DNA of 64,000 bases from NCBI GenBank assembly GCA_024398875.1, contig JAKSIJ010000009.1, positions 1-64,000 of the forward strand, read 5' to 3'. Every line of letters starts with the position of its first letter. The stretch's first letter is position 1. This DNA is from Fibrobacter sp. (GTDB taxonomy: Bacteria; Fibrobacterota; Fibrobacteria; Fibrobacterales; Fibrobacteraceae). Below, one piece after another: positions 15,262-51,457 of the stretch. The notes under the pieces were generated by a model. The model was not told the origin of the DNA and did not search any database. It saw only the letters and a list, made by a program, of their open reading frames with translations. The translations under genes were made by a program, and so were the position numbers.

Positions 15262-16554
15262 ATGAACTCGAAAAAGGCAATACTTCTCGGAATACTCCTC
15301 ACGGCTCCCCTCTATGCGGGCGGATCGTGGACGCTTGAAGCGTGCCTCAAGCAGGCCAAGGAGAAGAGCCTGCAGTTGGAATCTGCAAAGCTTCGGGAGC
15401 AGTCTGCCGACATCAGCATCAAGCAGGCTAAAATCGGAAATAGGCCCTCTGTTTCCGCCAGCATCCAGAATTCCCTCTTCGACCATCCCTTTGTAGATAA
15501 TGAGGACCACTACCGCCTGAGCCTCGGCATTTCTGGATCCTACACTTTGTGGGACGGCGGTTCCACCAGCCTGAATGTGGAAGCCAGCAAGCTCAATAAG
15601 GAAGCGGCAGCCCTCCAGACCAAGCAGACGGAACGCTCCATTCAAGAAAGCGTGCTCAACGCCTACATGAGCCTTCTCGCAGCATCCGAAAACCTCCGGA
15701 CCGCCGACGCCTCCGTAGAGCTTTCTCAGGCGGAATTCGACCACTATAGTAAACTTTTTGAGGCAGGCTCCATCACCAAGAAGGATTTGACTCAAAGCCA
15801 ATCCAACGTGATGCAAAAGCAGGTTTCCCAACTTACAGCCCAGCTGAACGTGAATACCTCCAAGACCACCCTCCGGCAGTTGCTGGAACTGGATGACAGC
15901 GAGAATTTCGAGGTCTCCGCTCCGGAAGCCGGCATGACAAGCCCCGACTCCTTGGAAGCGCTTCCCTCTCTGGAGGAACTCCAGAAGAACATCCGGGCGG
16001 CGCACCCCGGCCTTAAATCCGACAGCATCTCTGTCAAGGCCGCGCAGAAGAATACCGAAGTGGCGGGCAAGGGCAGCTCCATCTCCGTCTCCCTAGGCGC
16101 CAACAGCAGCACAGGGCTCTCTGCTTGGGAATCCAAGGAATATGGCGACCAGCTGAAATACGGCTGGCAGAACTCCATCTCCCTCAGCATCAACATCCCC
16201 ATCATTGATGGTGGCGCCACCACAAACAAAGTATTGCAAGCCCAGGTAAGCGAAGCGGAAACGCAGGTAGGCATGCAGGAGACTGCAAAGACCTTGGAGA
16301 ACAACATCGAGAAGCTCTACCTCAACGCCCTCAGTGCCGATATGCAGTGGAAGGCGGCCATATTGCAGGTAGAAGCGGAAACAGAAGCCTTGGCCGTCGC
16401 AGAAGAACAGCGCAACGCAGGCGCCCTCACCTACACGGATTACCTGAGCCAGAAAAATGCTTTGGAAAATGCACAAGTGACTTTGACAAACGCCAAGTAT
16501 ACTTGCCTCCTGGCGCGGAAACTTTTGGATTTATACCAAGGGAAATTGGATTAA
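15262..16554 (+). CDS. TolC-family outer-membrane efflux protein
   Basis: A 430-residue outer-membrane protein. Signal peptide KAILLGILLTAPLYAGG is followed by two OEP repeats, each with long alpha-helical heptad segments (TLEACLKQAKEKSLQLESAK; TEALAVAEEQRNAGALTYTDYL) and a barrel strand region (SLGISGSYTLWDGG; ISLSINIPIIDGG). It would form the trimeric exit duct of a tripartite efflux or type I secretion system, but no inner-membrane or adaptor gene is adjacent. The start at 15262 is chosen because the signal peptide begins there. Confidence 0.87.
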   Translation: MNSKKAILLGILLTAPLYAGGSWTLEACLKQAKEKSLQLESAKLREQSADISIKQAKIGNRPSVSASIQNSLFDHPFVDNEDHYRLSLGISGSYTLWDGGSTSLNVEASKLNKEAAALQTKQTERSIQESVLNAYMSLLAASENLRTADASVELSQAEFDHYSKLFEAGSITKKDLTQSQSNVMQKQVSQLTAQLNVNTSKTTLRQLLELDDSENFEVSAPEAGMTSPDSLEALPSLEELQKNIRAAHPGLKSDSISVKAAQKNTEVAGKGSSISVSLGANSSTGLSAWESKEYGDQLKYGWQNSISLSINIPIIDGGATTNKVLQAQVSEAETQVGMQETAKTLENNIEKLYLNALSADMQWKAAILQVEAETEALAVAEEQRNAGALTYTDYLSQKNALENAQVTLTNAKYTCLLARKLLDLYQGKLD

Positions 16555-16607
16555 TTTCCGAAAAACGCACCACGCAAAAACGTCTTTTTTTGATATCAAA
16601 AATGTTT

Positions 16608-16633
16608 CGGCTGTGAACAACGGCCGTTTTTTT
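16608..16633 (+). terminator. Rho-independent terminator after the TolC gene
   Basis: CGGCTGT (16608-16614) pairs with ACGGCCG (16620-16626) and is followed by seven T. Confidence 0.8.
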
Positions 16634-16657
16634 GTGAAATAACATGGGCCGCGGGCA

Positions 16658-16671
16658 AATTGCGCGCAATT
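16658..16671. promoter_or_regulatory. Palindrome upstream of the sigma-54 promoter (candidate enhancer site)
   Basis: AATTGCGCGCAATT is a perfect 14-bp palindrome about 85 bp upstream of the -24/-12 element, the distance range used by sigma-54 activators. It is flanked by ATGGG (16644-16648) and CCCAT (16672-16676). Its role as an activator site is inferred. Confidence 0.35.
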
Positions 16672-16757
16672 CCCATGCCAACTAAAATTGCCGTTTTCGG
16701 CCCAAATTTCACGATTTTCAATTTGTCAGAGGCGCACCGCAATGCCAACCCCTTTTT

Positions 16758-16773
16758 TGGCACACCTGTTGCT
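16758..16773 (+). promoter_or_regulatory. Sigma-54 (RpoN) -24/-12 promoter of the Hsp20 gene
   Basis: TGGCAC-N5-TTGCT matches the sigma-54 consensus, with GG at 16759-16760 and GC at 16771-16772 separated by the required ten bases. A start site near 16785 would give an about 60-nt leader before the Hsp20 ATG. The window also encodes RpoN (46739-48448). Confidence 0.65.
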
Positions 16774-16847
16774 CTAATGGGTGTGAAAACAAAAACAAAG
16801 GGCCTAAAGGCGAATGCCGCAAAGCCCGCAACCAAAGAGGTAAAATT

Positions 16848-17222
16848 ATGATGAACGCACAAATTCTCCCCACTGCTTTCTACGGCATCAAGGACATTTT
16901 CGATAGCCTGAGTGCTGCCACTCAGAGCGAGTGCTGCTTCACGCCAAAGGCAGACTACTACGAAGTCGAAAACGGCTTCAACCTTGAAGTGGAACTGCCC
17001 GGTGTGAAAAAGGAAGACCTGGATGTGCAGGTGGAAAAGAACATCATCACCGTCAAGGCCACCCGCGCTAGGAAAGACGAGAAGTTCACCTACCAGCGCA
17101 GCTTCCGCCTGGCCGATGACATCGATACCGAGAACATCAAGGTCTCCCTGGAAAACGGCATCCTGAGTTTCGCCCTTGCGAAGAAACAGCAGGCCGCCGC
17201 ACGCAAACTGGAAATCCAGTAA
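16848..17222 (+). CDS. Small heat-shock protein, Hsp20 family
   Basis: A 124-residue ATP-independent chaperone. The alpha-crystallin domain spans roughly residues 38-124, with FNLEVELPGVKKEDLDVQVE, the beta-core ITVKATR, FRLADDIDTENIKVSLENGI (Hsp20 signature GILS instead of the common GVLT) and a short tail. The tail lacks a clear I-x-I motif (ARKLEIQ). It holds unfolding proteins in the cytoplasm under stress. It is single between two terminators, preceded by a sigma-54-type promoter. Confidence 0.88.
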   Translation: MMNAQILPTAFYGIKDIFDSLSAATQSECCFTPKADYYEVENGFNLEVELPGVKKEDLDVQVEKNIITVKATRARKDEKFTYQRSFRLADDIDTENIKVSLENGILSFALAKKQQAAARKLEIQ

Positions 17223-46738: not shown

Positions 46739-48448
46739 CTACCCGATGGCTTTGCGGGCACGAGCCGGCAAAATCTTCAGTTCTTCTTCGCGATACTTCG
46801 CCACCGTCCGGCGAGCGACCTTGATGCCTTGGGCTTCCAGGGCGTCGGCGATGGCTTGGTCTGAAAGCGGCTTCTTCTTGTCCTCTTCGTCCACCAGCTT
46901 TTTGATGGCGGCAAGAATCTGAGCGGAGCCCACAACTTCATCGTCTGCAGCACTTCCCTGCTTTACGCCAGAAGTGAAAAACTGCTTCAGCTCGAAAATT
47001 CCGTAAGGCGTGTCCACGAACTTTCCGTTTGTGACGCGGCTGATGGTAGAGAGGTCGCGACCTACTTCGTCTGCGATTTCCTGCAAAATCATGGGCTTCA
47101 AAAAAGCGGGACCCTTCTTGAAGAATTCCTTCTGGCGCTTCACAATGGCCTGCATCACCTTCTCCATAGTCGTGAAGCGATTATCGATGGCCTTGATGAA
47201 TTCCTGCGCTTTTACAAGATGGGTACGAATGTACTCCTTGTCTGCTTTTGAAGCGGAGGGACTATCCAAAAGGGAAGCGTATTCCCGATTGATGCGGAGG
47301 CGACGCTGCACCTGCTTTTTGAAGCACTCCACTTCGAAGCGGCCCTTCTTTTCTACCACACGCATATCGGCAACCTTGACGCCTGCGGGCGCGCTGGAAA
47401 TCTGCCGCCCGGGATGAGGCACCAGTTTTGAGAAGCACGCGACAGCCTGCTGTACCTCTGTGAGAGGGACGCCCAATTCCTTTGCGATTTTGGGGTAGCG
47501 GAGAGCCATCAAATCATCAAAGTGCTGCTGCAGAATCTGGAGGCCAAGTTCCGGAAAATCCGCCACGTAGCGCGCCTGAATCAGGAAGCATTCCTGCAGG
47601 TTTCGGGCGCCGATGCCCCGAGGAGAGAAGCTTTGCAGCACATGGATGGCTTCGGCCACAGGGAGGCTTGCGGATTCCAGAGGAACTTCGCCGCGGAGAA
47701 CTTTCTCCGACATCACAATGAGCGGGTCATTGTCCAGAAGCACCTTCATCATGGCGGAATCATCGGCGCCCTGGAGGTAGCCGTTTTCGTCCAGAGAGTT
47801 GATGAGGTATTCCACCAGCTGGCGGAACTTCTCCTCAGAACAGCCCGCGGTTTTCAGCTGGCTCAGAAGTTCGCGGGTGCCGTTCCATTCCCGCAACTGG
47901 TCCAGCAATTTTTCCTGAAGGCTTTTCTCGCGGTCTTTCTGCGGGCGATCCCACACATCGTCCTGGTCTTTCTCTTCCCGATTCAAATCCTTGAAAGGAG
48001 CGTCTGTATCAGAAGTTCCATCTTCCAGATATTTGGCCCAATCCAGTTCCGAAGGCGTAGAGCCATCCAGAATGCCGTAATCCATGTCGGCGCTGTCTTC
48101 CAGCGAACCGCTGGAGAAATCCATCTCCTGCATTCCGGAACCACCGACGTCATCGGCTAACCCATTACCAGAAACATCGTCAGTGTAATTGTCGTTTTCT
48201 CCGCGGCCCAATTCGCGCAAATCATCGACGGCGCCACCTTCACGGCCTTCTCCGGATTCAGACACCATGTTTTCAGGGAGACTTTCATCCAGTTCCAGCA
48301 GGGGATTGTTTTCCACCTCTTCCTTGATGGCGGTCTCCAATTCCAGCGCATTCTTCTGGAGAATGGTGACGGACTGAAGAAGCTGCGGCGTCAGGGTTTG
48401 TTCCAACCGCTGACTTTGCCCAAGATTGATTCCAAAATCCATAGGCAC
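46739..48448 (-). CDS. rpoN: RNA polymerase sigma-54 factor
   Basis: A 569-residue sigma-54. Region I is Gln/Leu-rich (LGQSQRLEQTLTPQLLQSVTI), region II is acidic (about 60-180), the core-binding domain has QECFLIQARYV and LVPHPGRQIS, and the DNA-binding C-terminus carries the RpoN box ARRTVAKYREE. It directs RNA polymerase to -24/-12 promoters and needs an enhancer-binding ATPase, none of which is encoded here. It is the last gene of the lpt operon, an arrangement conserved from Proteobacteria. Confidence 0.95.
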   Translation of the reverse strand: MPMDFGINLGQSQRLEQTLTPQLLQSVTILQKNALELETAIKEEVENNPLLELDESLPENMVSESGEGREGGAVDDLRELGRGENDNYTDDVSGNGLADDVGGSGMQEMDFSSGSLEDSADMDYGILDGSTPSELDWAKYLEDGTSDTDAPFKDLNREEKDQDDVWDRPQKDREKSLQEKLLDQLREWNGTRELLSQLKTAGCSEEKFRQLVEYLINSLDENGYLQGADDSAMMKVLLDNDPLIVMSEKVLRGEVPLESASLPVAEAIHVLQSFSPRGIGARNLQECFLIQARYVADFPELGLQILQQHFDDLMALRYPKIAKELGVPLTEVQQAVACFSKLVPHPGRQISSAPAGVKVADMRVVEKKGRFEVECFKKQVQRRLRINREYASLLDSPSASKADKEYIRTHLVKAQEFIKAIDNRFTTMEKVMQAIVKRQKEFFKKGPAFLKPMILQEIADEVGRDLSTISRVTNGKFVDTPYGIFELKQFFTSGVKQGSAADDEVVGSAQILAAIKKLVDEEDKKKPLSDQAIADALEAQGIKVARRTVAKYREEELKILPARARKAIG

Positions 48449-50675: not shown

Positions 50676-51457
50676 TATGGCCTCTTCTTTGCCGAAGGGC
50701 GATTTCCGGGCATAGGCACATTCTTTGGCACGGGTTTTGCTGTACCTGCGGCTGATTTCGTTTTCAACGAATCCAACTTTACAAGCTTCACGTTTGCAGA
50801 ATCCGTACTTGCGGAATCCGCCTTCACCGGTTCCACTTTTGACGAATCCTTCTTCTCAATCTCCGCCGCCTGCTGCTTGTCCTCTTCCTTGATGCGTGTA
50901 GCCGCATCCTGGAAAATTCCCGTCACATCGGAAATGATTTTCCAGTTGTCCATCTTGGCGTCACTTTCAAAACCCTTCCCTTGCAGCACATCGCCATCTT
51001 CCGAAACCACCCGAACATAACTATCCGTTTTCACCAAGTTCGTCTTCTTGTTCCAAAGAAGCGAATCTGCACGGACAGAGGCGCCCTTGGGTGTAATGGC
51101 ATACACATGGCCGTAGGCGTAGACGTAGGTGAACTTCATATCGAGGCGGCCGGAATCCGCACGCAAAAATGCGACGCGTTCACCCGTGGAATCGTAAATA
51201 TCCACGAGAACTGGCCGCACATACACCACTTCCTTATCTGCCCACCGCTCCAGATAAGCGGTCTTCAGCTTCCAAGAAAGGGCGTCCTTGTCGTAACTAT
51301 CCAAGAGGGTGGTGTCGGTGAAGAGCATCTGCGGGCGTTCCACCTCTTCCCATTCCTTTTGTTCCTCTTCGATTTTTTCGCAGGCAGCAAGCACGAAAAA
51401 ACTCAGCCACAATAACAGGCCAAAAATACATACCCGTCTTGTACGGCTGAGTTCCAT
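50675..51457 (-). CDS. lptC: LptC-like LPS export protein
   Basis: A 260-residue protein with one N-terminal membrane anchor (VCIFGLLLWLSFFVLAAC), ending with a Cys in lipobox-like context. An LptC domain (residues 40-165: YVRPVLVDIYDSTGERVAFLRAD, VYAYGHVYAITPKGASVRADS) is followed by a Lys/Asp/Ser-rich disordered C-terminus. The stop overlaps the lptA start by one base. It hands LPS from the ABC transporter to LptA. Confidence 0.82.
   Translation of the reverse strand: MELSRTRRVCIFGLLLWLSFFVLAACEKIEEEQKEWEEVERPQMLFTDTTLLDSYDKDALSWKLKTAYLERWADKEVVYVRPVLVDIYDSTGERVAFLRADSGRLDMKFTYVYAYGHVYAITPKGASVRADSLLWNKKTNLVKTDSYVRVVSEDGDVLQGKGFESDAKMDNWKIISDVTGIFQDAATRIKEEDKQQAAEIEKKDSSKVEPVKADSASTDSANVKLVKLDSLKTKSAAGTAKPVPKNVPMPGNRPSAKKRP

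Follow-up and report, generated by a model that had tools for sequence, protein, structure and literature searches.

The window, by which we mean the whole stretch of 64,000 nucleotides analysed here, comes from a member of Fibrobacter, a genus known for the breakdown of cellulose in the gut. It contains the following features around the gene for a small heat-shock protein (hsp20), together with the gene for sigma-54 (rpoN):

16603..16620, + strand: upstream dyad 1, TGTTTC-N6-GAACAA, a putative enhancer site, degenerate here (from the alignment of hsp20 loci; 0 two-sided changes in 198 cells)
16608..16626, + strand: terminator-like hairpin followed by seven T, overlapping the dyads (1 found, 1.0 expected in shuffles)
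16625..16641, + strand: upstream dyad 2, CGTTTTTTTGTGAAATA, with 2 mismatches to the GTTTC/GAAAC core (from the alignment of hsp20 loci)
16658..16671, no strand: 14-bp palindrome AATTGCGCGCAATT, not conserved, 86 bp upstream of the promoter
16758..16773, + strand: predicted sigma-54 (-24/-12) promoter of hsp20, TGGCACACCTGTTGCT (pattern match; 35/35 hsp20 loci)
16834..16840, + strand: likely ribosome-binding site AAAGAGG (read from the sequence)
16848..17222, + strand: hsp20, small heat-shock protein of 124 aa (PF00011, HSP20, E 7.7e-17)
46739..48442, - strand: rpoN (sigma-54), with a presumptive start codon (TIGR02395, 355.5 bits, cut-off 277.35, plus all three sigma-54 Pfam domains)

The product of hsp20 is a plain HSP20 protein, and 74 bp separate its ATG, at 16848, from TGGCAC-ACCTG-TTGCT on the + strand (16758-16773), which shows 0 mismatches to TGGCACNNNNNTTGC and from which transcription would be expected to start at ca. 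16783-16785. Only the exact form of the pattern is informative, because with up to two mismatches there are 99 matches in the window against 70 expected; a second exact match, at 50726, falls within an ORF. We aligned 35 upstream regions, comprising that of the window and those of 34 hsp20 loci fetched through protein similarity. All of them keep GG-N10-GC, and 33 of the 35 match TGGCAY-N5-T(T/C)GC strictly, the remaining two (L038 and L042) being one base off. The original prediction of an RpoN promoter, TGGCAC-N5-TTGCT, at 16758 is thus borne out by an exact match to the consensus and by the retention of the site across related Fibrobacter, and the presence of rpoN in the same window, also predicted, is confirmed by a TIGR02395 score over cut-off. 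As judged from these sequences, control of hsp20 by RpoN is strongly supported.

A 14-bp palindrome upstream of the promoter had also been put forward as a feature of interest. It does exist, but a regulatory role for it was not supported: allowing up to two mismatches, AATTGCGCGCAATT is matched once in the window, where 0.62 are expected and 42 of 100 shuffles reach one, and it is absent from the 330 bp upstream of hsp20 in all of the relatives (0/34). We rejected it as an enhancer, and it looks like a chance occurrence. The conserved pair of dyads (16603-16641) ends 16 bp ahead of the palindrome start.

This pair is the second conserved block of the hsp20 upstream regions, a double dyad of the form TGTTTC-N6-GAAACA followed by GTTTC-N5-GAAA. 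Its distance to the promoter, measured in 34 of the 35 loci, varies between 92 and 222 bp across species, as expected for an enhancer; L043 has a second, closer dyad match. Dyads with no more than one core mismatch occur at 34/35 loci, with the window as the single exception, and the two core mismatches in each of its dyads argue against strong regulation of this particular hsp20 copy. When a profile of the double dyad was compared with the genome to which the window belongs (G000, 2.78 Mb in 90 contigs; hereafter the source genome), with 150 of 1386 candidates scored, it retrieved only its own site (E 3.7e-7), followed by two further places with E values of 0.3 and 1.1.

The exact form TGGCAC-N5-TTGC occurs at 19 sites in the source genome, against 4 for the reversed control, and the narrower pattern TTGGCAYNNNNTTYGCW, which excludes the hsp20 site of the window, at 12 against 0. 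Sites preceding genes are those of hsp20, groES-groEL, dnaK, grpE, clpB, a sigma factor of 270 aa and spoVG, and the others are mostly inside ORFs; one further exact site, C34:123649, falls within none of the ORFs found, but no gene was found downstream of it. The site associated with the 270-aa protein, a group-2-like sigma-70 factor, is exact and intergenic, 52 bp before the gene (C6:29060; L004, 1501-1516). This protein falls well short of the cut-offs for RpoH and RpoS, and a sigma cascade through it is possible. The site before spoVG, TTGGCATGGAGTTTGCA, lies 91 bp upstream of the gene (C1:53623, L096). These two sigma-54 sites are plausible, but we did not retain the two genes as members of a regulon, since no dyad with up to two mismatches was seen before spoVG and the sigma factor gene has one at two mismatches only. 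Two sigma-54-like sites, on opposite strands and 27 bp apart, precede clpB (C12:182306 and 182333, L113).

The original prediction had also regarded sigma-54 at hsp20 as an unusual, lone case; the site holds, but it is not alone, because groESL, grpE, dnaK, clpB and htpG share such promoters. A strict sigma-54 site is present within 330 bp upstream of the gene at 62/62 groES, 39/50 dnaK and 33/35 hsp20 loci, compared to 0.35% of 1136 background windows and ca. 0.1% of mononucleotide shuffles; the loci are related, so these counts are not independent. Dyads with at most one core mismatch were found at 59/62 groES loci and at all 39 dnaK loci with a sigma-54 site, as against 5 of the 11 without it; in the 1136 background windows, the frequency of such dyads is 3.9%, and that of exact dyads is 0/1136. 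The consensus of the 59 groES dyads is YGTTTCA-WWW-TGAAACR, including two inner bases that were not part of the search pattern, A7 (57 loci) and T11 (54 loci). The 11 dnaK loci with no sigma-54 site directly before the gene belong to genera g5, g6, g8 and g11, and in eight of them an exact dyad is found 617-703 bp ahead of dnaK, at a position that is probably immediately upstream of grpE. The sequence YGTTTCANNNTGAAACR appears in 47 of the 373 loci fetched, all of them chaperone loci, in a set that is rich in these and has some overlap.

The htpG gene of the source genome, reached through a genome scan for dyads, is preceded by TGGCATGGAACTTGCT, and an exact dyad separates this promoter from the ATG. 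For clpB, the promoter was found in the source genome and in seven of the 12 relatives fetched; with the other five regions the script returned no site plus ORF, and the fetched stretch may miss the start. No dyad of up to two mismatches occurs in the 300 bp before clpB of the source genome. HtpG, DnaK, GroES and GroEL of this genome score over their NCBIfam cut-offs and GrpE was assigned by Pfam, whereas the best NCBIfam match of the clpB gene is to ClpB but, at 1104.8 bits, falls short of the cut-off of 1232.1 bits. Genome-wide, the short dyad core shows no enrichment (56/53 versus 56/49 for the control; in this loose scan 100 of 109 matches were listed and 30 given as loci), so we discarded the loose pattern as a genome-wide marker, the full consensus alone being informative.

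It is highly likely, from the distribution of these sites, that the hsp20 promoter belongs to a sigma-54 network of chaperone genes in Fibrobacter and its relatives. Of the 19 exact matches in the genome, the majority fall within ORFs, which would suit an incidental match at hsp20, with transcription driven by a sigma-70, sigma-32 or ECF promoter; yet we consider this exceedingly unlikely, given that the site is kept at 35/35 loci, that a simple scan of 16500-16900 found no sigma-70-like site and that other chaperone genes are preceded by the same promoter. The conserved element further upstream could, in turn, be a terminator of the preceding gene instead of an enhancer. The hairpin and T-run at 16608-16626 may indeed terminate transcription of the efflux gene that lies upstream, and a GC hairpin with a T-run was seen by eye at L044, L045 and L047-L049. 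Nevertheless, it is letters and not pairs that are conserved, with two-sided changes in 0 of 198 cells where 0.9 are expected, and we discarded an RNA-hairpin reading of dyad 1 in view of this lack of covariation. Moreover, L034 and L037 show separate terminator-like hairpins farther upstream (by eye), and the same dyad recurs upstream of groES and of dnaK as well as at htpG, making a terminator alone an improbable explanation. Terminator and enhancer roles may coexist in the element at hsp20.

HrcA (PF01628) was detected above cut-off in none of the 61 genomes of the Fibrobacter family (f1), in a search where 7 of 14 control genomes were positive; a single sub-threshold match, in G015, did not recur in the phylum-wide search. 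Across the phylum, HrcA is present in 29 of 120 genomes, none of the 29 belonging to families f1 or f2; we took these 120 genomes, of which the positives are given in full but the negatives only in part, as the same set as in the genome listing, both tallies giving 83 good genomes and 37 genera. Likewise, CIRCE has at least 5 mismatches of 18 at 62/62 groES loci of the family. Outside the family we fetched 20 groES upstream regions and read 19, one copy per genome, dropping L314 because no groES start was found; several of these genomes contain a second groES copy, and the counts cover one copy each. CIRCE, with up to two mismatches, is present in all 14 HrcA-bearing genomes and the groES sigma-54 site in none of them (0/14). 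Where there is no HrcA match, the sigma-54 site precedes groES at 62/62 f1 loci and at four of five other loci (G109, G112, G066 and G063), with G065 having neither. Because the HrcA-bearing genomes have CIRCE and no groES sigma-54 site, sigma-54 seems to have replaced HrcA/CIRCE in the Fibrobacter lineage; HrcA/CIRCE would have been lost in the lineage that holds Fibrobacter, and sigma-54 would have taken over. The sites in L311 (G066) and L318 (G063), from other families, place groES sigma-54 promoters in two lineages with no HrcA match, and these are perhaps independent replacements.

The dyad also occurs in class-mates of family f3, where 5 of 8 groES regions (L301, L302, L304, L306 and L308; 3 exact) contain it alongside CIRCE and without a sigma-54 site, indicating that the dyad need not work solely through sigma-54. 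It is as if the enhancer had preceded the promoter switch, and either the activator, an enhancer-binding protein (EBP), acts at sigma-70 promoters too in f3, or another protein reads the dyad. In G061 (f5), an HrcA-bearing genome, an exact GTTTC-N5-GAAAC dyad lies near the grpE-dnaK junction (L353, at ca. 6077 in reverse-complement numbering).

The source genome has nine PF00158 matches, with four strong EBPs, and the activator at these dyads is probably an NtrC-like EBP whose gene (C1:62977-64440) is of a dnaJ-linked type. This protein contains a receiver-like domain (PF00072, 1.7e-07), an AAA+ domain and a Fis-type HTH (PF00158, 5e-71; PF02954, 4e-14), and shows GSYTGS where several other genera show GAFTGA; its gene is the last of an operon that also encodes a PAS histidine kinase and a single-domain receiver. 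Among 14 orthologues, the phospho-Asp position is occupied by E, D, N, H, G, S or C, with D only in two rows of genus g10; as this residue is mostly lost, ordinary phosphorylation of the receiver is unlikely outside g10. When 63 EBPs belonging to 14 family genomes were placed in a tree, a single group (support 100/100) included the candidate type and was present in 14/14, and a second tree, from which three long or duplicate rows were dropped beforehand, recovered the same group, with 31 rows and a support of 1.0, in 17 of the 18 genomes from outside the family.

The neighbourhood of the gene points in the same direction. In two sister genera (G006 and G011), the EBP gene closes a groES-groEL-grpE-dnaK-dnaJ cluster, a short ORF intervening in G011, and in f3 (G093, G077) and f5 (G061) it follows groES-groEL-hrcA-grpE-dnaK-dnaJ (gene names assigned by eye, that of HrcA by profile as well). 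DnaJ motifs flank the EBP at 8/8 f3, 2/2 f2 and 1/1 f5 loci, with L319 of f3 showing zinc motifs only, at a contig end, and at 0/7 loci from f6-f9, two of which (L335 and L336) fall outside the EBP group. From co-occurrence, synteny and dyad geometry, we infer that this EBP acts at the dyads. An exact GTTTCA-TAA-TGAAAC dyad is also found within the EBP coding sequence itself (C1:63266-63280), over the codons for the receiver motif SFIMKP, and may be a coding coincidence. In G030 (g5), the EBP gene (L260, 713-2149) follows that for a TPR-repeat protein, not a kinase, and a different signal input is possible for this EBP.

The main weakness of the assignment is the f3 dyad without a sigma-54 site. 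These groES regions (5/8) would fit a real sigma-54 regulon whose dyad is bound by another protein, either another EBP, for instance the PspF-like one of clade C, or a non-EBP regulator; besides, clade C is present in 13 of the 14 family genomes, and in G008 its gene (L229, 6961-7839) adjoins groEL. However, clade C adjoins lysC or pta in 8 of these 13 genomes (named by eye), f3 also has the dnaJ-linked EBP, and the 17-bp dyad shares the geometry of the NtrC enhancer, TGCACCA-NNN-TGGTGCA, so that we find a different dyad-binding protein rather unlikely. Clades B and D, which are missing in genera that keep the dyad, were rejected as the activator.

We therefore favour, with good confidence, the complete reading of a sigma-54 regulon, a dyad-binding EBP and a replaced HrcA/CIRCE system. 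Sigma-54 RNA polymerase would transcribe hsp20 from 16758, as part of a heat-shock regulon that would comprise hsp20, groES-groEL, grpE, dnaK(-dnaJ), clpB and htpG. The EBP would bind the YGTTTCA-WWW-TGAAACR dyads, reach the poised sigma-54 holoenzyme through a DNA loop whose length differs between species, and open the promoter through ATP hydrolysis. The signal would be heat or misfolded protein, and its presumed route to the EBP may be atypical: with a receiver mostly unable to take phosphate as usual, the EBP would sense protein-folding stress otherwise, for instance through its release from a chaperone or through the neighbouring kinase and receiver.

Accounts of heat-shock control in bacteria usually centre on alternative sigma-70-type factors or on repressors, and here enhancer-dependent, ATP-driven activation appears to control the main chaperone genes throughout a family. 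For the broadest interpretation, that sigma-54 activation took over the whole core heat-shock response from the HrcA repressor, driven by an EBP whose gene already closed the ancestral chaperone operon and with folding stress sensed by a non-phosphate route, we consider the chances to be even. The replaced HrcA/CIRCE is still visible elsewhere in the phylum, offering a testable case of regulatory replacement for which a likely activator and its DNA site are now available, and one of the few EBPs of Fibrobacter acquires a possible role.

HrcA/CIRCE, which controls groESL and dnaK, is a repressor system present in other families of the Fibrobacter phylum, in contrast to the Fibrobacter family, with HrcA over cut-off in 0/61 genomes and CIRCE at 0/62 groES loci. 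Another known regulator of heat-shock genes, HsfA, is NtrC-like. The HsfA-HsfB phosphorelay of Myxococcus xanthus is reported to activate lonD (Ueki and Inouye 2002, cited in PMC9548883), and it resembles Fibrobacter, by description alone, in being a two-component system for a heat-shock gene; it serves one protease gene, whereas Fibrobacter would have a chaperone regulon, a defined dyad and an EBP receiver mostly without phospho-Asp. Passages on ibpB in PMC4316790 and PMC4370416 report a sigma-54 promoter for this gene of E. coli, like Fibrobacter hsp20 a small heat-shock gene; in E. coli, sigma-32 also reads the operon and a single gene is concerned, unlike in Fibrobacter, where the main chaperone genes are involved and no HrcA was found. 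Sigma-54 at ibpB is, therefore, already known, as is the prediction of sigma-54 targets among the chaperone genes of other phyla. No sigma-54 heat-shock regulon of Fibrobacter was among the literature matches listed, in a coverage with subscription journals mostly outside it. In the relevant parts of Carrera-Reyna 2025 (PMC12316311), GroEL, GroES, GrpE, DnaK, DnaJ and IbpA are predicted sigma-54 targets in Bacteroidota and Planctomycetota, its statement on B. thetaiotaomicron citing a Blattabacterium paper, and none of the terms Fibrobacter, Fibrobacterota and HrcA is matched in its main text. For these chaperone targets, the parts consulted give no enhancer element or EBP, whereas Fibrobacter has a candidate for both.
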